Below, piece by piece: positions 15,384 to 59,971 of a stretch of DNA of 64,000 bases (the first letter of the stretch is position 1; each line of letters opens with the position of its first letter). The position numbers were made by a program, and so were the translations under genes. The DNA is from Leptotrichia sp. oral taxon 218 (GTDB lineage: Bacteria; Fusobacteriota; Fusobacteriia; Fusobacteriales; Leptotrichiaceae): the NCBI RefSeq assembly GCF_018128225.1, contig NZ_CP072377.1, positions 620,001 to 684,000 on the forward strand, read 5' to 3'. Under the pieces are notes generated by a model, which ran no database searches, had not been told where the DNA came from, and saw only the letters and a program-made list of their open reading frames with translations.

Positions 15384-16594
15384 ATGAAATATAATTTAGC
15401 ATTCAAATACAGAATTTATCCAAATAAGGAACAGAAATTATTGATAAATAAGACTTTTGGATGTGTTCGTTTTGTTTACAATACGATTTTGCATATTGCT
15501 AATAAAATTTATGAAGAAACTGGAAAAAATAAAATAGTTACACCTGCCAGTTTGAAAAGTGAAAATCAATTTCTAAAAGAAGTAGATAGTCTGGCACTTT
15601 CAAATGCTCAATTGAATGTAAAACGATCGTTTACGAATTTCTTTCAAAAGAGAGCAAAGTTTCCAAAGTTCAAATCTAAAAAGAATAATGTTAAAAATTA
15701 TACGACAAATTGTGTGAATAATTCAATACGAATTGAGGAAAACAAATATTTGGTTTTGCCAAAATTGAAAAGAATAGACCTGTTCGATAACTATACAAAC
15801 TTAGAATTTAATAAAATAAATATCTTGAAGCAAGGGGTCTTGACCCCTTGTATAGATAAAAAAACTTAGGTTATCGAACATATCTAATAAAATTGAAATA
15901 CCATAGAGAAATACCAAAGAATTATAGAATAAAGTCGGTAACATTGACAAACAGCAATGGAAATTACTATGTTTCTATTTTGACGGAATTTGAAAAAGAA
16001 ATTCAAAAAATGCCAAGTTGCAATAAAATAATTGGACTTGATTTTTCAATGTCTGAATTATTTGTCAGTTCTGAAAACCAAAGGGCTGATTATCCAAGAT
16101 ATTTTAGAATGTTGGAAGAAGAATTGAAAAAATTACAGAAATCATTATCGAGAAAAGTGAAATTTTCTAAAAATTGGTATAAGCAAAAAGCGAAAATATC
16201 AAAGTTACATGAGTATATTAAAAATTGTCGAAGAGATTTTTTGCATAAATTATCGAAAAAATTGTCTGAAGCGTATAATGCTGTAGTTGTTGAGGATTTG
16301 AATATGAAAGGGATGAGTCAGTCATTAAATTTTGGTAAAAGTGTAGGAGATAATGGATGGGGAATGTTTTTGAAAATACTTGAGTACAAGTTGATGTTTT
16401 TAGGGAAACAATTTTTGAAGATAGATAAGTGGTTTCCATCATCGAAAACTTGCAGTAAATGTGGAAATATTAAAGAGGAACTGAAATTATCAGAAAGAAG
16501 TTATAAATGTGAGTGCTGTGGGATTGAAATTGATAGAGATTACAATGCGGCATTGAATATAAAAAACATTGGAAAATTGATGTTGGAATATTAA
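15384..16594 (+). pseudogene. tnpB: tnpB, RNA-guided nuclease, interrupted
   Basis: TnpB is the RNA-guided nuclease of IS605-type elements, ancestral to Cas12. The N-terminal part (15384 to about 15775) and the C-terminal part (from about 15889) match copy 2 at 37021-38119. Between them sits a 110-bp mini-element with stop codons, which also shifts the frame. The C-terminal part keeps the RuvC-like acidic residues (GLDFSMSE, VVVEDLNMKGM, the final IDRDYNAA) and a CSKCGN...CECCG zinc finger. The start has a strong GGAGGTG site. As it stands it would give only truncated proteins. Confidence 0.85.
15776..15885 (+). mobile_element. 110-bp mini-transposon inside tnpB
   Basis: The insertion has inverted ends of about 16 bp: AGACCTGTTCGATAAC at the left and GTTATCGAACATATCT at the right. 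It is flanked by AAT on both sides (15773-15775 and 15886-15888), whereas copy 2 of tnpB has a single AAT at this point. It contains a perfect 20-base palindrome centred on 15840 (CAAGGGGTCT/AGACCCCTTG type) and no gene. It is therefore a non-autonomous element with a 3-bp target duplication. Confidence 0.75.
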
Positions 16595-37020: not shown

Positions 37021-38119
37021 ATGAAATATAATTTAGCATTCAAATACAGGATTTATCCAAATAAGGAACAAGAATTGTTGATAAATAAGACTTTTGGATG
37101 TGTTCGTTTTGTTTATAATACGATTTTATACATCGCTAATAAAATTTATGAAGAAACTGGAAAAAATAAAATAATTACACCTGCCAGTTTGAAAAGTGAA
37201 AATCAATTTTTAAAAGAAGTAGATAGTCTGGCACTTTCAAATGCTCAATTGAATGTAAAACGATCGTTTACGAATTTTTTTCATAAGAGAGCGAAATTTC
37301 CAAGGTTCAAATCTAATAAAGAATAATGTTAAAAGTTACACGACAAATTGTGTGAACAATTCGATACGAATTGAGGAAAACAAATATTTGATTTTACCAA
37401 AATTGAAAAGAATAAAATTAAAATATCATAGAGAAATACCGAAGGATTACAAGATAAAGTCAGTAACATTGACAAACAGTAATGGAAATTACTATGTTTC
37501 TGTTTTGACGGAATTTAAAAAAGAAATTCAAAAGGTAGCTAGTAATGATAAAGTAATTGGACTTGATTTTTCAATGTCTGAATTATTTGTCAGTTCTGAA
37601 AACCAAAGGGCTGATTATCCAAAATATTTTAGAATGCTGGAGAAAAAATTGAAAAAATTACAGAAATCATTATCAAGAAAAGTGAGATTTTCTAAAAATT
37701 GGTATAATCAAAAAGCTAAAATATCAAAATTACATGAGTACATCAAAAATTGTCGAAAAGATTTTCTGCATAAATTATCGAAAAAATTGTCTGAAGAATA
37801 TGATGTTGTGGTTGTTGAGAATTTGAATATGAAAGGGATGAGCCAGGCATTAAATTTTGGGAAAAGTGTAGGAGATAATGGATGGGGAATGTTTTTGAGG
37901 ATGCTTGAGTACAAGTTGATGTTTTTAGGAAAACAATTTTTAAAAATAGATAAGTGGTTTCCGTCTTCGAAAACTTGTAGTAAATGTGGAAATATCAAAA
38001 AGGAACTGAAATTATCAGAAAGAAGTTATAAATGTGAGTGCTGTGGAATTGAAATTGATAGAGATTACAATGCTGCAGTGAATATAAAAAACATTGGAAA
38101 AGAAATGTTGAAATATTAA
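37021..38119 (+). pseudogene. tnpB: tnpB, RNA-guided nuclease, frameshifted
   Basis: The first frame runs from 37021 to 37326 and the second resumes at about 37325. Copy 1 reads AAATCTAAAAAGAATAATG at this point, while copy 2 has one extra base (AAATCTAATAAAGAATAATG), giving a +1 shift. The second part keeps GLDFSMSE, VVVENLNMKGM, the zinc finger CSKCGN...CECCG and the last RuvC aspartate in IDRDYNAA. The lesion differs from that in copy 1, so the copies decayed independently, unless the shift is a programmed slip, which the short A-run makes unlikely. Confidence 0.87.
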
Positions 38120-41837: not shown

Positions 41838-41864
41838 AAAAAAACAGTACCTTTTTAGTACTGT
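41838..41864 (-). terminator. Terminator of the leftward early operon
   Basis: ACAGTAC and GTACTGT form the stem, and on the minus strand seven T residues follow. It overlaps the last codons of the integrase gene and protects the host side from phage transcription. Confidence 0.85.
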
Positions 41865-42916
41865 TCATATAAGCTATTTAGTATGTCTTTTATCAAATCA
41901 TCGTCTTCTTTTAGAACGTGTGAATATATATCTAAAGTAGTTGACACTCTTTCGTGTCCAAGTCTTCTTGAAAGTGATACTATATTAACGCCTTTCGATA
42001 ATAAGAAAGTTGCGTGAGAATGTCTTAAATCGTGAACTCTAATTTTTTTTAAATTGGCTTTCCGAGAGTACACATTTATATCGTTTTGAAACTTAAACTT
42101 TGTAAATCCCTCGAATAATCTAGTTTTCGGAGTAGGTTTATATAATACTTTGATATAATCTTGTATAATGTCTATAACAAATTTAGGACAATCAATAGTT
42201 CTTTTAGACTTAGGGGTTTTTGGAGTCGATATAACATCGGTTTTCTTTATTCTCTGAAAAGTTTTATTTATCCTTATTTTATGTTTTTCAAAATCTATAT
42301 CTGATATTGTTAATGCTAACATTTCACCCACTCTCATACCTGTATAAAACAATATATTGAATCCAACTACAGCTTCTTTTTTATGATTGATTGCTTCTAT
42401 AAATTGTTTAAATTCCTCTAATGTCCATATATTCATTTCTCCAGCGTTCTTTTTTCCAATTCTTCCAGCTGCTGAACAAGGATTTTTATTTAAATTGTAA
42501 AACTTAACTGCATAATTTAATATAGCAACAAGTTGTTCGTGAATAGCTCTTAGATATGTTTGAGCAAGATTTCCTTTTATTAGTTCATTTTGCCATTTTC
42601 TAACCAGTAAGGGAGTTATTTCTTTTATCTTGTACTTTTTAAAAAATGGTAATATCTTTTTATCAAAAATATATGTTTTGCTTTCTATTGTGCTTGGTTT
42701 TAATCTATTTTTTTGATCATCCATATAAGATTTATATAGATTTTCAAATGTTATTTCAGTGTCAGAAACAAAAGAATTTATGTAATTTCTTTCATATTCC
42801 ATTGCTTCCTGTTTTTTGCTAAATCCCATTTTTTTAACTTTTTTAGAAATTCCATTTTCTTTTACATAAAAAGAAACATACCATTTTTTACTTTTTTCAT
42901 CTTTATATGCTGGCAT
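41855..42916 (-). CDS. int: Tyrosine-type phage integrase
   Basis: A 353-residue recombinase that catalyses insertion and excision at att sites. The N-terminal Arm-binding domain begins MPAYKDEKSKKWYVSFY, followed by a SAM-like core-binding domain and the catalytic domain with Arg in TGMRVGEML, HDLRHSHATF, RRLGHERVS and the nucleophile in DIYSHV. The start at 42916 is preferred to the GTG at 42925 because the AGGAT site is better spaced and homologues begin with this sequence. It is the last gene of the leftward operon and follows the excisionase-like gene directly. Confidence 0.95.
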   Translation of the reverse strand: MPAYKDEKSKKWYVSFYVKENGISKKVKKMGFSKKQEAMEYERNYINSFVSDTEITFENLYKSYMDDQKNRLKPSTIESKTYIFDKKILPFFKKYKIKEITPLLVRKWQNELIKGNLAQTYLRAIHEQLVAILNYAVKFYNLNKNPCSAAGRIGKKNAGEMNIWTLEEFKQFIEAINHKKEAVVGFNILFYTGMRVGEMLALTISDIDFEKHKIRINKTFQRIKKTDVISTPKTPKSKRTIDCPKFVIDIIQDYIKVLYKPTPKTRLFEGFTKFKFQNDINVYSRKANLKKIRVHDLRHSHATFLLSKGVNIVSLSRRLGHERVSTTLDIYSHVLKEDDDLIKDILNSLYEQY

Positions 42917-42924
42917 AAAAATCA

Positions 42925-43098
42925 CTATCCTATATTGTAACGTTCATTAAAGTATTTAATGTTTACTCTTCCTCGTTGTGTTAAAAATCCTTTTTCCCTT
43001 AACTCTTCGTTTAATTTTCTTATAATTTCATAAGCTTTTCCCTCTTTGACGTTCATAATCTTCATAACATCATTGTATTCATAAAACCATTTTTTCAT
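42925..43098 (-). CDS. Excisionase-like small DNA-binding protein
   Basis: A 57-residue protein behind a perfect GGAGG site, beginning MKKWFYEYNDVMKIMNV and continuing EGKAYEIIRKLNEELREKG. The pattern of a short helix-turn-helix followed by a Lys/Arg-rich wing (LTQRGRVNIKYF) is that of excisionase or MerR-like winged-helix proteins. Its place directly before int supports a role in directing excision. It overlaps the upstream gene by four bases. The function is inferred from size, fold pattern and position. Confidence 0.7.
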   Translation of the reverse strand: MKKWFYEYNDVMKIMNVKEGKAYEIIRKLNEELREKGFLTQRGRVNIKYFNERYNIG

Positions 43099-48321: not shown

Positions 48322-49911
48322 ATGGCAAGACGCGGAAAAAGTTTTACTACTATTTTAAAACAGGCTGCACGTGAGGCGGAAAAAAGTAGAAAACGTGCAG
48401 AAAGAGAACGAGTTCAAAAATTAAATGCAATGAGGAGGGAACAAACAAAAGCTGAAAAAGAATACCAAAAACAATTACAGAAAGAATATGTAGAGGGTAA
48501 TCAAAATTATGCTAAAACAATGAAAGAAAATGCTGAAAATCAACGCAATACTTTTTTAAAAATAGCTAATCACATACATATAAAAAATAAAATTAGTTTG
48601 TTGGATCAGATTAGAGAAGATACATTCAATGAAAAACGTCCAGAAAAATCTGTTAAAATTGTATTTCCCAAACCAGAATACAAAGAAACTTTTATATCAA
48701 AAATAATTCCTTCAGTTAAGAGAAAGAAAAAAATGCAATATGAAAAAGAATTGAGAGAATGGAAAGTGAAATGTGAAGGCGCTAAAGCTGCAAATGAAGA
48801 AAATTTGAAAGCCTTTAACGAAGAATTGGAAAATTGGAAAAAGAGAAAAATTAGTTTTTACGATGAACGTGAAAAATACAACAAAAGTATTGAAGAACTA
48901 AATGATAGATATAATAAAAACGAACAAGAGGCAATTGAAGAATATTTTGAATTAGTCTTAGATGCGATAGAATTTCCATACGAAGGTTTGGAGGGAGATT
49001 ATGATTTAGAGTATAACGAGTTAAGTAAAATATTAGTGTTAGATTATGTTTTACCAAATATAGATGTGATACCAGATTTAAAAAATATGACTTATGTAAA
49101 ATCACGAGATGAATTTAATGAGACGTATATAACTGAAAAGCAAAAAGAAAAAGTGTATAATGAATTATTATATGGATTAGTTTTAAAAATTGTAGAAATA
49201 TTATATTCAAAAGTTGAAAATGATAGCGTGAAATCAATAGTATTTAATGGTTGGATAGAAAATATAAATAAAGCAACTGGAAATGAACAAAGCTTTTGTT
49301 TATTAAGTCTACAAACTAAAAAAGAGAATTTTGATGTTATAAATTTAGAACAAGTTGATTATAAAACTTGTTTTAGAAAATTAAAAGGTATTTCAAAACC
49401 TAACTTAAATGACTTAGTTCCTGTTGCCCCAATATTGAATATAAATACAGAAGATAAAAGATTTATTGATAATGTTGAAATAGGTGATAAAATAGAGGGA
49501 ATAAATATAGCAAATATTGATTGGAAAGATTTTGAACACTTAATAAGAGAATTGTTTCAAAAAGAATTTGAAAATGATGGAGTAGAAGTAAAAACTACAC
49601 AAGCAAGCAGAGATGGTGGAGTTGATGCAATAATGTTTGACCCTGATCCAATTAAAGGTGGAAAATACATAATACAAGCAAAAAGATATAACAATTTAGT
49701 AGGAATATCAGCAGTTCGAGATTTATATGGAGCAGTTCATAATGAAGGGGCTACAAAAGGTATTTTAGTTACTACATCAGATTTTGGAGCGGATTCTTAT
49801 GAATTTGTCAAAGATAAACCTTTGACCTTGATAAATGGAAGTAATTTATTAAGTTTATTACAAAAACATAATTACAAAAATGTAAGAATTGATTTGAAAG
49901 AAGGGAAATAA
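48322..49911 (+). CDS. Coiled-coil protein with Mrr-type endonuclease domain
   Basis: A 529-residue protein. The first ~200 residues are highly charged with long coiled coils (Arg/Glu/Lys-rich). The C-terminal ~120 residues are a PD-(D/E)XK domain of the Mrr_cat type: WKDFEHLIRELFQKEF, then SRDGGVDAIM with Asp431 and Asp435, and YIIQAKRYNN with Gln452 and Lys454. It directly follows the repressor by 14 bases, so it would be expressed in the lysogen. That position and domain suggest a superinfection-exclusion or restriction cargo gene. The target is unknown. Confidence 0.8.
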   Translation: MARRGKSFTTILKQAAREAEKSRKRAERERVQKLNAMRREQTKAEKEYQKQLQKEYVEGNQNYAKTMKENAENQRNTFLKIANHIHIKNKISLLDQIREDTFNEKRPEKSVKIVFPKPEYKETFISKIIPSVKRKKKMQYEKELREWKVKCEGAKAANEENLKAFNEELENWKKRKISFYDEREKYNKSIEELNDRYNKNEQEAIEEYFELVLDAIEFPYEGLEGDYDLEYNELSKILVLDYVLPNIDVIPDLKNMTYVKSRDEFNETYITEKQKEKVYNELLYGLVLKIVEILYSKVENDSVKSIVFNGWIENINKATGNEQSFCLLSLQTKKENFDVINLEQVDYKTCFRKLKGISKPNLNDLVPVAPILNINTEDKRFIDNVEIGDKIEGINIANIDWKDFEHLIRELFQKEFENDGVEVKTTQASRDGGVDAIMFDPDPIKGGKYIIQAKRYNNLVGISAVRDLYGAVHNEGATKGILVTTSDFGADSYEFVKDKPLTLINGSNLLSLLQKHNYKNVRIDLKEGK

Positions 49912-56781: not shown

Positions 56782-57309
56782 ATGAACGAAAAGGATATAG
56801 ACAGAATAGCAGATAAAATAATAGAAAGAATGAAAAATGAAAAAGAAATAAAAACCGAAAAACAACTAACACCATTTCAAAAGACAGAGAAGTTATTATC
56901 TGAATTATCTTTGCTGAAAGGTGCTATTGATTCTAAAAATATGCTTATAGAGGATTTGAAGAAAGAGGGAATATCAATTCAGAAAAGAGAAACTGGAGTT
57001 AATGTGCAGTCTAGTAAAGTATATCTATCAGAATTAGAAAAGGTTGAAAATAGAATTGAAAAATTACAGGAAGAAATTACAAGGATAGAAAACGTTGTTA
57101 ATATGGTTGAAAGGGCTTTGGATACGATTAGGAACGATAAATATTATAATATAATTGAGATGAAATACTTTGAAGATTTGACTTTTGAAAATATAGCTGA
57201 AAAATTAAACATAAGTGTAAGAACAGCAAAAAGACATAAAAACTTTATGATTAGGCAACTGCAGATAATTATTTTTTCAGATGATGTGTTAAAAAGTATA
57301 TTAAATTAA
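56782..57309 (+). CDS. ArpU-like late transcription regulator
   Basis: A 175-residue protein. The first ~110 residues are helical with coiled-coil character. The C-terminus carries a sigma-70 region 4-like helix-turn-helix (YNIIEMKYFEDLTFENIAEK, then LNISVRTAKRHKNFM). This matches the ArpU-type regulators that stand just before the terminase genes and control late transcription. The start follows AAAGGAAG. The promoter and short terminated leader that follow may be its target. Confidence 0.78.
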   Translation: MNEKDIDRIADKIIERMKNEKEIKTEKQLTPFQKTEKLLSELSLLKGAIDSKNMLIEDLKKEGISIQKRETGVNVQSSKVYLSELEKVENRIEKLQEEITRIENVVNMVERALDTIRNDKYYNIIEMKYFEDLTFENIAEKLNISVRTAKRHKNFMIRQLQIIIFSDDVLKSILN

Positions 57310-57357: not shown

Positions 57358-57420
57358 ATGTCAAGATGAAAGAGTATGAGTTGAGTACTTATTATTGGAT
57401 CCTTGATTTATATAAGGACA

Positions 57421-57448
57421 AGACAGTTTAAAAGCTGTCTTTTTTTTG
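57421..57448 (+). terminator. Terminator in the late leader
   Basis: AGACAG paired with CTGTCT, with an eight-base loop and eight T residues after it. It lies between the candidate late promoter and terS. A transcript from that promoter would be about 80-90 nt unless antiterminated. Confidence 0.75.
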
Positions 57449-57470: not shown

Positions 57471-57902
57471 TTGAAATTAAATGCAAGGCAGAAGTCTTTT
57501 TGTGAGTTTTATGTAGCTAGTGGAAATGCTACTGAATCCGCAATAAAGGCTGGGTATAAAGAAAAGTATGCAGGTGTAAATGCTGATAAATTACTAAAAA
57601 ATACTAATGTTTCTAAATATATAAAAAAGATAATGGAAGAACATGCAAATAATAGAATAGCTAAAGCTGAAGAGATACTGGAGTTCTTAACTGCAACTTT
57701 AAGAGGAGAAGTAACTGAAGAAGTAGTAGTGGGAGGATTTGGAAAATCAGCGACAGAAAAAATAATTAAAAATGTAGATTTAAAAGACAGGTTAAAAGCA
57801 GCGGAACTACTTGGTAAACGATATAGACTGTTTACTGATAAAGTTGAAGTTGAAGGAGTTGTGCCTGTTATGATTGTAGGTGAGAGCGAACTTGAAGAGT
57901 AA
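57471..57902 (+). CDS. terS: Terminase small subunit
   Basis: A 143-residue DNA-recognition subunit of the packaging motor. The N-terminal helix-turn-helix (LNARQKSFCEFYVASGNATE, then SAIKAGYKEKYA) is typical of the terminase_2-type family. A helical oligomerisation region follows. The start is TTG behind a strong GGAGGAGG site, with no better start nearby. It overlaps terL by 23 bases. Confidence 0.92.
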   Translation: MKLNARQKSFCEFYVASGNATESAIKAGYKEKYAGVNADKLLKNTNVSKYIKKIMEEHANNRIAKAEEILEFLTATLRGEVTEEVVVGGFGKSATEKIIKNVDLKDRLKAAELLGKRYRLFTDKVEVEGVVPVMIVGESELEE

Positions 57903-59971
57903 AAAGATAAGACTTCCTGATTTAGTCGGAAAAGGATACAGAGATTTTTGGAACTTTAAAGGAAGATACAGAGTCTGTAAAGGGAGTCGTGGGAGTAAAA
58001 AAAGCAAGACAACTGCATTATTTTTTATTTATTCAATGATGAAATATCCTGGGGCAAACTTGCTTGTGGTAAGAAAAGTTTATCGGACGTTAAAGGATAG
58101 CTGCTTTACAGACTTGAAATGGGCTATAAACAGGCTTAAAGTAAACGATTACTGGAGTATCAAAGAAAGTCCGTTGGAGATAACTTATATTCCTACTGGG
58201 CAGAAAATATTATTTAGAGGGTTAAACTGAAAACAGCTCTCTTAAAACTCATCTAATTCATGGGAAACCGAAACGTAAAGACGTCGGCAATCATGAGCGA
58301 AGATAAATTGACAAAAATTATAAAAAGGTGTATAATGACCCTAGAAATAAATAGGAGGGAAATTATATGTATATTGTTTATTTGTTCAAAGAAAAAGAAA
58401 CTAATGAAGTAATTTATGTTGGAAGTACATCAAGACCTATTGTAAGGTTAAAAGAGCATAAACAACAATTATTGGGAATGAAACCTCAAAATGCCATTCA
58501 CAGATATATGACAGAAAAAAAATTAAAATTATATGATGATGTGGAAGTTGTTTTTACGAAAGAGTGCAGAAATAAAGAAGAGCTGTTAAGATGGGAAGAA
58601 AAATATTACTATAAATATTTAAAAACGTTAAAAAACGACAGACCTGCGGAAAACAGAAGTGGTGTGTATAACCCAAGACGCAGAAAAGTTAAATGTTTAA
58701 ATGACGGTAATATTTTTAAAACGGTAACTGAGTGTGCGGCTTTTTATAAAAAAGGAAGAACAACAATAAGCAATGTGTTAATTAAAGAAAAACCATATAC
58801 CTTAATAAATAATGAAAAATATTATTTTGAATATGTTAATTTATAACGTGCAACGACTATCGAAAGCAGAGAAAGACCTGCCAATTTAGCAGGTCTTTTT
58901 TTAGTTAGTAGAGTAGGGCTTAAGCAAGCTCGAAACGGTGAGAACAAATAAAAGAATTTGTTAAGATATAGTCTGAACTTTATGGAAACATAAAGAGTAT
59001 ATATGGAAGCGATATATACGTAACAAAATGTGGACGATCCGCTTAAAGTTACTTCAATAACAGTTGAAACTGGAAATCTATGCTGGGCGTGGATTGAGGA
59101 AGCCTATGAGATAAACAAGGAGCAGGATTTTAATATGCTTGACGAAAGTATAAGAGGTACTGTTGAAGAGCCTTTATATAAGCAGATTACACTCACGTTT
59201 AACCCTTGGAACGAACTGCACTGGCTCAAAAAAAGATTTTTTGATGTTGAAGACGAAAATATAATGGCAAAGACAACCAACTACATGTGTAATGAATGGC
59301 TTGACGACAGTGACAAGAAACTGTTTGAGGATATGAAGAAAAACAACCCTAGACGTTATCAAGTGGCAGGGCTTGGCAACTGGGGGATTGTTGAAGGGCT
59401 TGTTTATGAAAATTGGAGAGAGTTGGAATTTGATTGGAGAGAAATTTTAAATAAAAGACAAAAAGCAAAAGCAGTATTTGGGTTAGATTTTGGATATACG
59501 AATGACCCTGCTGCTTTTTTTTGCGGGATAATGGACCAGGAACAAAAAGAAATTTATGTTTTTGATGAAATATATCAAAAACGGATGCAAAATACAGTTA
59601 TTTACAGAAGCATAGAAAAACTCGGGTTCAGGAAGGAAATAATAACTGCCGACAGTGAGGAACCAAAGAGTATAGAACATTTAAGAAGCTTGGGATTGAC
59701 TAGGATAAAAGCATCTAAAAAAGGGAAAGATAGTATAAATGCTGGAATACAGTTTATTCAGGATTTTAAAATTTTTATTCATCCAAGGTGTGTAAATTTT
59801 TTAACAGAGATATCTAATTATGCTTGGGATAAAGATAAATTTGGAAAAGCAGTAAATAAACCGATAGATGACTTTAATCATTTAATGGATGCCATGAGAT
59901 ATGCACTTGAGGATTATATGAGAAATAATCGGATGAAGACAATTAATAAAAATATATTGGGGGTGAGATAA
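57880..59971 (+). CDS. terL: Terminase large subunit, split by a group I intron
   Basis: The packaging ATPase/nuclease is encoded by exon 1 (57880-58222) and exon 2 (59031-59971). Joined, they give 1284 bases, or 427 residues. Exon 1 has Walker A (CKGSRGSKKSKTT, residues 33-45). Exon 2 has Walker B (CWAWIEEAYE) and the RNase H-like nuclease acids (GLDFGYTNDP, ITADSEE, DDFNHLMDAMRY). Splicing rejoins the codons as RGL-DDPLK. Without splicing, translation stops at a TGA 6 bases inside the intron and no motor is made. The start is GTG, coupled to terS. Confidence 0.9.
58308..58336 (+). promoter_or_regulatory. Consensus promoter inside the intron
   Basis: TTGACA at 58308-58313 and TATAAT at 58331-58336 with 17 bases between them, 30 bases before the endonuclease start. 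It gives the endonuclease expression independent of late transcription. Confidence 0.85.
58367..58846 (+). CDS. GIY-YIG homing endonuclease
   Basis: A 159-residue intron-encoded nuclease that would cut intronless terL alleles and spread the intron. The N-terminal GIY-YIG domain reads MYIVYLFKEKETNEVIYVGST, with the conserved Arg in SRPIVRLKEHK and Glu in LLRWEEKYYYKYL. The C-terminal part (VKCLNDGNIFKTVTECAAFY, then KKGRTTISNVL) is a NUMOD-type DNA-binding helix region. It has an AGGAGGG site and its own promoter. The gene lies between P6 and P7 of the intron, a normal place for such genes. Confidence 0.92.
   Translation: MYIVYLFKEKETNEVIYVGSTSRPIVRLKEHKQQLLGMKPQNAIHRYMTEKKLKLYDDVEVVFTKECRNKEELLRWEEKYYYKYLKTLKNDRPAENRSGVYNPRRRKVKCLNDGNIFKTVTECAAFYKKGRTTISNVLIKEKPYTLINNEKYYFEYVNL
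58872..58905 (+). terminator. Intrinsic terminator inside the intron
   Basis: AAAGACCTGC and GCAGGTCTTT form a perfect 10-bp stem with a seven-base loop, followed by further T residues. It lies between the two strands of P7, where P8 is expected, so it may be both an intron helix and the terminator of the endonuclease transcript. Confidence 0.75.

Follow-up and report, generated by a model that had tools for sequence, protein, structure and literature searches.

Introduction

The closest described systems are phage introns and IStrons, and the excerpts of the articles cited here give the following picture of them. The terL intron of phage LL-H has a length of 837 nt and encodes a 168-aa endonuclease (PMC1995217). 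In Vibrio phage ICP1, terL is also split, and splicing was shown by RNA-seq and RT-PCR (PMC10448857). RNA-seq further revealed that, in the lysK intron of the virulent Kayvirus 515A1, an endonuclease gene is served by a promoter of its own (PMC7698491). The td, nrdB and nrdD introns of T4 (I-TevI, II and III) have an intron-internal promoter and a hairpin by which the ribosome site is masked in long transcripts; terminators are mentioned in the excerpt for the free-standing genes mobE and segF, but for none of the introns (PMC2988022). IStrons are group IA2 introns with P7.1 and P7.2 that occur in Fusobacteria including Leptotrichia buccalis, for which one IStron copy is given (PMC4227781). 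In the fusobacterial phage literature, the excerpt that matched both group I intron and terminase describes IStrons and a terminase-bearing prophage, and no terL intron.

The locus analysed here lies in a 64-kb stretch of the genome of Leptotrichia sp. oral taxon 218, hereafter called the window. Its terL intron is by itself one more case of the already known terL introns, those of LL-H and ICP1 having been published. Judging from the sequence, it is probably a spliced intron with an autonomous endonuclease unit, in which transcription would start at an internal sigma-70 promoter, P7.1 would act both as a ribozyme helix and as a terminator, and late transcription would proceed by antitermination.

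A group IA intron in a prophage terL gene

The exons and the elements of the ribozyme are as follows (window positions).

57880-58222, + strand: terL exon 1, the Walker A half of the ATPase domain (Terminase_3 match; start codon uncertain)
58223-59030, + strand: group IA intron, 808 bases (splice sites, P1, P3, P8, RF00028 matches below the gathering score, empty sites in relatives)
59031-59971, + strand: terL exon 2, Walker B and the nuclease domain (Terminase_3 positions 87-200 and Terminase_3C)
58216-58242, + strand: P1, exon bases 58216-58222 with the internal guide 58236-58242, U-G at the cut
58248-58253, + strand: P3 5' strand CUCAUC (3' strand GGUGAG at 58937-58942)
58855-58860, + strand: P7 5' strand GACUAU (3' strand AUAGUC at 58968-58973)
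58916-58931, + strand: P7.2 hairpin (read by eye; re-paired in relatives)
58944-58961, + strand: P8 hairpin ACAAAU/AUUUGU
58978-58995, + strand: P9.1 hairpin with a GAAA loop (read by eye; overlaps an RF00028 partial match)

The first-pass annotation had proposed that a group I intron at positions 58223-59030 splits terL, and this was borne out by the splice sites, the re-pairing helices, the intronless relatives and an internal endonuclease gene. As it had described, the frame of exon 1 runs into a TGA stop at 58228-58230, terL continues from 59031, and the joined frame reads ...LFRGLDDPLK..., with the RGL-DDPLK continuity kept. The intron interrupts a leucine codon in phase 1, and the predicted ligated junction 58222/59031 reads AGAGGGU-UGGACGAU. 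In a profile search, exon 1 corresponds to positions 3-87 of Terminase_3 (PF04466, E 3.3e-23) and exon 2 to positions 87-200 of the same profile plus Terminase_3C; because these ranges abut at position 87, nothing of TerL is lost on joining. The proposed location between Walker A and Walker B agrees with our reading of the motifs by eye, in which we take Walker A to lie in exon 1 and the WIEEA of exon 2 to be Walker B. When aligned with intronless TerL proteins, the joined product matched five relatives that read straight through the site.

The described P1 pairing of AGAGGGU (58216-58222) with GCUCUCU (58236-58242), ending in U-G, and the intron-final G were both found, and the U-G rule for P1 also applies to Lactobacillus phage LBR48, Aeromonas phage AS1 and the related introns L012, L017 and L024. 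The P7 and the GAAA-capped P9 of that description likewise correspond to GACUAU/AUAGUC and to a P9.1 loop at 58985-58988 read by eye; P9.2, also read by eye, is present as well, so that P9 is extended. P1, P3 and P8 are kept with differing letters in relatives, that is, by re-pairing. P3 pairs by different sequences in the window, LBR48, AS1, L017/L024 and LL-H; its assignment in L012 is doubtful, and L103 lies outside this comparison. Since P7.1 and P7.2 are located between P7 and P3 and P9 is extended, the intron belongs to the IA class, the two helices being a mark of IA2 according to the excerpt of PMC4227781.

A covariance search with RF00028 had also been proposed and is the exception among these checks: it gave only two partial matches of 27.0 and 18.0 bits, and none reached the gathering score of 50, which is a library threshold and not a biological requirement. 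Among the relatives, L012 (42.0 bits) and LBR48 (33.4 bits) matched over the full model, and L017, L024 and LL-H were not listed at E 0.01. The split of the model in the window is attributable to the endonuclease gene inserted in P6, which is only part of the reason for the low score: L017 and L024, in which no endonuclease gene was seen, were also unlisted, indicating that low Rfam scores are typical of this lineage. On these sequence features, the segment 58223-59030 is a group IA intron in a prophage terL gene.

Its surroundings include two further features.

41855-42925, - strand: tyrosine integrase of the prophage (PF00589, E 3.3e-22)
57420-57441, + strand: intrinsic terminator (terminator scans), with 29 bases between it and the downstream terS

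The terS gene lies at 57471 and the portal gene at 59971. Similar hairpins, approximately 30 bases upstream of terS, are present in the same-family loci L013 (686-709) and L014 (652-667), in terL orientation; in L015, L016 and L021, neither a terS match nor such a hairpin was found. Terminators upstream of terS hint at late antitermination, which would fit. No antiterminator gene was identified; the gene at 56782-57309, just upstream of the terS terminator, has a sigma-70 region 4 match. The prophage region also contains an Mrr-type restriction endonuclease gene (48322-49911, PF04471, E 1.6e-31).

The terL intron was also considered as a possible IStron, and this identity was rejected, because a GIY-YIG gene and no TnpB lies inside and the nearest TnpB match of the genome is ~20 kb away. 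Elsewhere in the genome, 17 full-length group I intron (RF00028) matches were found, all away from the terL intron and 12 of them above the Rfam cut-off (for example, at genome positions 1106526-1106866, 250552-250893 and 2062923-2063270). A TnpB zinc-ribbon match lies 0.4-1.15 kb downstream of each of the 17 (coordinates by eye), suggesting that they are IStron-like, and the TnpB matches near them fall into two score and size classes. The genome bears a heavy load of TnpB-like zinc-ribbon matches, 58 in 2.17 Mb, two of which are inside the window (16358-16561 and 37883-38086).

Intron sites within terL

Relatives were collected from a phage collection by a protein search with the endonuclease and by DNA patterns of the intron core. 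The terL site is empty in five same-family TerL genes (L013, L014, L015, L016 and L021), and it is filled, with a related GIY-YIG endonuclease, in LBR48 and AS1. The locus thus shows the sequence marks of a homing intron: an endonuclease gene of a homing family, empty sites and recurrence at the same site. A second terL site, at the Walker B codons, is occupied by introns with the same core in L012, L017, L024 and LL-H (L010). Of these, L012, which is of the same genus, has an HNH gene by motif, and no endonuclease gene was seen in L017 and L024, which are of the same family. In exon 2 of the LBR48 terL (L009:3811-3874), a second break was observed, where the match to the window TerL changes frame across ~62 bases.

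The endonuclease protein search of IMG/VR yielded no relative, and that of 33 same-family genomes including the window's own found only the own copy. Megablast of window positions 42000-64000 against phages gave no match, in a search from which very near records may be excluded.

An intron-encoded endonuclease and its predicted promoter

The GIY-YIG gene, its promoter and the terminator hairpin were absent from the first-pass annotation and are added here.

58308-58336, + strand: TTGACA-17-TATAAT, a sigma-70 promoter preceding the endonuclease gene (12/12 match)
58339-58359, + strand: possible ribosome-site lock, CCCU 58339-58342 with AGGG 58356-58359 (pairing by eye)
58367-58846, + strand: gene for a GIY-YIG homing endonuclease of 159 aa, located in the P6 region (PF01541, E 1.6e-8, 35.1 bits versus a cut-off of 22.6)

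With spacers of 15-19, only two perfect promoters exist on both strands of the window, and one is that of the endonuclease gene. CCCU lies directly 5' of the predicted +1 at 58343. The predicted unpaired probability of the ribosome site was 0.67 in the promoter transcript versus 0.52 in the precursor, a small effect with a shuffle fraction of 0.08.

P7.1 as a terminator-like hairpin

Between P7 and P7.2 lies the element that gives the intron its terminator-like feature.

58872-58902, + strand: P7.1 helix, an intrinsic-terminator hairpin (10-bp stem AAAGACCUGC/GCAGGUCUUU, then seven U at 58896-58902)

By sequence, P7.1 has the form of an intrinsic terminator, a GC-containing stem with a U run directly after it. 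The segment 58862-58904 has a predicted energy of -18.5 kcal/mol (z -5.4), and a strict terminator scan of both strands of the window returned the hairpin as one of seven sites. Another terminator scan gave it on the minus strand only, probably because the U run was absorbed by growth of the stem. Among the literature matches listed, no description of a P7.1 terminator was found, and the excerpts of PMC2988022, PMC3984707, PMC1995217, PMC3219970, PMC6445280 and PMC7698491 contain none.

The same form recurs in other introns. Among P7.1 spacers with six T (loci L026 and up), a stem of at least 6 bp, one G-U being allowed, was present in 49 of 54 (shuffle mean 1.2, maximum 4), and when, more strictly, only perfectly paired hairpins were counted, the result was 23 of 53 (mean 0.7 and maximum 4 in shuffles). 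In a sample unselected for T, runs of at least six T occurred in 8 of 219 P7.1 spacers and runs of at least six A in 2 of 219; in the 36 bases downstream of the spacer, the respective numbers were 0 and 4. Because A runs of at least five (22) outnumber T runs of at least five (12), short runs alone are meaningless.

Introns with the same core and the associations of P7.1

Introns were collected by exact-pattern sampling with the DNA pattern of the P7 core GACUAU/AUAGUC. Those with a terminator-like P7.1 by a hairpin rule are referred to as T+ and the other introns of the same P7 core as T-. The first two core-pattern scans gave at least 120 and at least 118 stretches, and the T- introns are a sample. 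Among the matches listed, there were 323 introns, 64 of them T+, a fraction that is no natural frequency, because T+ introns were enriched by a T6-pattern scan. The non-redundant set with the P7 3' strand and 900 bases upstream comprised 236 sampled introns (42 T+ and 194 T-). According to hand counts, the two groups differ in their sources, isolate records making up 36/66 of T+ versus 13/115 of T-, and contigs >60 kb 3/66 versus 56/115.

Within terL, 24 introns were compared: an endonuclease gene is present in 11 T+ and 6 T- introns and absent from 1 T+ and 5 T- introns, and the sequence of 1 T+ intron was too short. The rule overlooked hairpins with an intact or interrupted U run in two of these T- introns, L293 and L103. 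L103 shows a stem with UUUUCU and also has an integrase.

The T+ introns are associated with endonuclease genes. Pfam matches to HNH_3 and GIY-YIG, summed with possible overlaps, numbered 29 for the 42 T+ and 54 for the 194 T- introns (p 1.4e-6); they consist of 22 HNH_3 and 7 GIY-YIG among the 37 ORFs of the T+ introns, and 45 HNH_3 and 9 GIY-YIG among the 76 ORFs of the T- introns. Regular expressions detected endonuclease genes in 33/42 T+ and 33/194 T- introns, the T- introns being undercounted; the nine T+ introns lacking one by this method are L032, L135, L264, L274, L279, L283, L299, L300 and L304. The association has exceptions, as many T- introns bear endonuclease genes. L092 and L135, located in tape-measure-like host genes, have kept a terminator-like P7.1, and before P7 they contain only the exon 1 frame and no endonuclease gene, possibly reflecting a recent loss.

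Promoters follow the same tendency. The mean promoter score of 33 T+ genes was 10.1 (7.7 when shuffled) versus 8.4 (7.6 when shuffled) for 33 T- genes, and the score exceeded that of the shuffle at p<=0.05 in 20 of the 33 T+ versus 8 of the 33 T- genes. Scores of at least 10 were also seen in seven T- introns, including L150 and L096.

The host genes, assigned by exon 2 families, differ as well. The 47 T+ host genes include 17 tape measure, 13 terL, 9 endolysin and 5 minor capsid genes; among 37 T- introns with endonuclease genes, NrdD leads (9), followed by terL (6) and tape measure (3). Late genes account for 44/47 versus 12/37, both being sums of family counts that possibly overlap.

An integrase or recombinase was found in 29 of 41 T6-pattern phage records versus 7 of 50 T- records (p 3e-8); the 41 include L291, L293 and L324, which fail the T+ hairpin rule. 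The 50 T- records were the first eligible by number, without L091 and without L070 (same contig as L036); records <25 kb were dropped, and near-duplicates were kept (L290 = LBR48). Six of the seven T- matches were above the family cut-off. For contigs <=62 kb, the proportions were 28/39 versus 1/14 (p 3e-5), a limit that excluded two T- integrase records of 62.7 kb and 65.4 kb, and for contigs <=66 kb they were 28/39 versus 3/16 (p 7e-4). LL-H is a T+ case without an integrase match.

The pairing of the ribosome site was computed for introns with a promoter score of at least 9 and fitting spacing, with the 60 bases upstream randomised by simple letter shuffling as the reference. In 27 T+ introns, the site was unpaired at 0.61 in the promoter-started RNA, 0.28 in the precursor and 0.45 in the upstream-shuffled RNA, and the values for 11 T- introns were 0.58, 0.39 and 0.45, respectively.

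Proposed mechanism and alternative explanations

In the mechanism that we propose, the group IA intron would self-splice from the late transcript and restore TerL, and packaging would depend on this splicing. The GIY-YIG endonuclease would presumably cut intronless terL and thereby spread the intron. The vegetative sigma-70 promoter inside the intron would start a short endonuclease mRNA, which would end at P7.1, at once a ribozyme structure and an intrinsic terminator, and the promoter transcript would never include the catalytic 3' half. Because this unit would stop at P7.1, the endonuclease could be expressed in the lysogen without switching on the downstream late genes. The ribosome-binding site would tend to pair in the long late transcript, leaving that RNA for splicing, and the late polymerase would have to get through the P7.1 terminator, for which antitermination is the simplest means. 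The last step is the weak point, as late expression should be reduced by a strong terminator placed within a late gene if the polymerase has no way past it. AS1, in which an intron at the same site has a related endonuclease and almost no P7.1, counts against the autonomous unit. If the mechanism is true, a selfish element would be active in a dormant prophage while leaving the late genes asleep, which raises the question of how late transcription passes through a terminator inside an essential packaging gene.

Beyond the window, we interpret the T+ pattern as a variant, belonging to temperate phages, in which the endonuclease gene is insulated. Tentatively, and at somewhat less than an even chance, the terL, tape-measure, lysin and minor-capsid introns may form a widespread temperate-phage class of group IA introns in which a self-contained endonuclease gene, with a vegetative promoter, a locked ribosome site and a P7.1 terminator, is expressed in the lysogen. 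If this wider pattern is true, a structural helix of a self-splicing ribozyme doubles as a transcription terminator, and lysogens could produce the homing endonucleases of their prophages, at a stage at which an intronless phage that enters could be cut. Intron homing would then be tied to superinfection and would have a simple sequence signature to search for.

Among the alternatives, the one that survives best is that the terminator-like P7.1 and the promoter are inherited marks of one temperate-phage intron lineage with few host groups, unselected for insulation. Many T+ introns indeed have host genes and HNH/NUMOD4 endonucleases in common, and the core tree yields one independent pair on supported branches, which is too weak to part function from descent. 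However, T+ introns contain both HNH and GIY-YIG endonucleases and occur in at least four kinds of late genes by family counts, their stem and U run are kept despite different stem sequences, and at least 16 state changes are needed on the best tree, most branches of which are unsupported. We regard descent alone as unlikely.

That the hairpin and U run serve the ribozyme as an aid to pausing or folding, and not as a terminator, has only a slim chance of being correct. P7.1 is transcribed just before the P3 3' strand, P8 and the P7 3' strand, and a pause there could aid folding. However, T- introns manage without a terminator-like P7.1, the hairpin is associated with endonuclease genes, promoters and integrases, and it is built like an intrinsic terminator, with a stem and a U run. 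The chance is slimmer still that the terminator is an attenuator that lowers late expression or couples it to splicing or translation: its position upstream of terL exon 2, the portal and the head genes would suit this role, which nevertheless leaves the added promoter and the integrase link unexplained, and T+ introns in endolysin genes would be expected to have fewer late genes downstream. A terL gene merely broken by an unspliced insertion was rejected as scarcely credible, given that the splice sites are exact and lossless, that the core helices are conserved, that relatives have empty sites and that phages of Lactobacillus and Aeromonas show the same arrangement.

Comparison with known systems

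The closest counterpart of the window intron is that of LBR48 (GU967410), which has the same insertion site, a promoter, a terminator-like P7.1 and a GIY-YIG endonuclease with 51.6% identity over 97% of that of the window. It differs in its host and in the sequence of the P7.1 stem, which nevertheless pairs. In the LBR48 record, two terminase pieces and the endonuclease are annotated, and no intron is annotated in the terL stretch. AS1 (PV831789) has the same terL site and a related GIY-YIG endonuclease (46.5%), whereas its P7.1 is almost absent and it has no terminator; its record gave no PF00589 or PF07508 match. LL-H resembles the window in having an intron with the same core and a terminator-like P7.1 in terL, but the insertion is near Walker B and the endonuclease is HNH according to the RefSeq record. 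The P7.1 of LL-H has five U and is absent from the results of the stricter six-T scan.

The remaining systems are compared by their excerpted descriptions. In ICP1, unlike in the window, the endonuclease gene lies beside the intron and not inside it (PMC10448857), and IStrons are fused to an IS element with TnpB and have no such homing endonuclease (PMC4227781). The T4 introns differ in using middle or late phage promoters and in belonging to a virulent phage (PMC2988022). In Kayvirus 515A1, transcription that starts at the intron promoter crosses the 3' part of lysK and reaches the end of the unit (PMC7698491), unlike the arrangement predicted for the window; by analogy, its lysK intron may be regarded as an un-insulated counterpart of the T+ introns.
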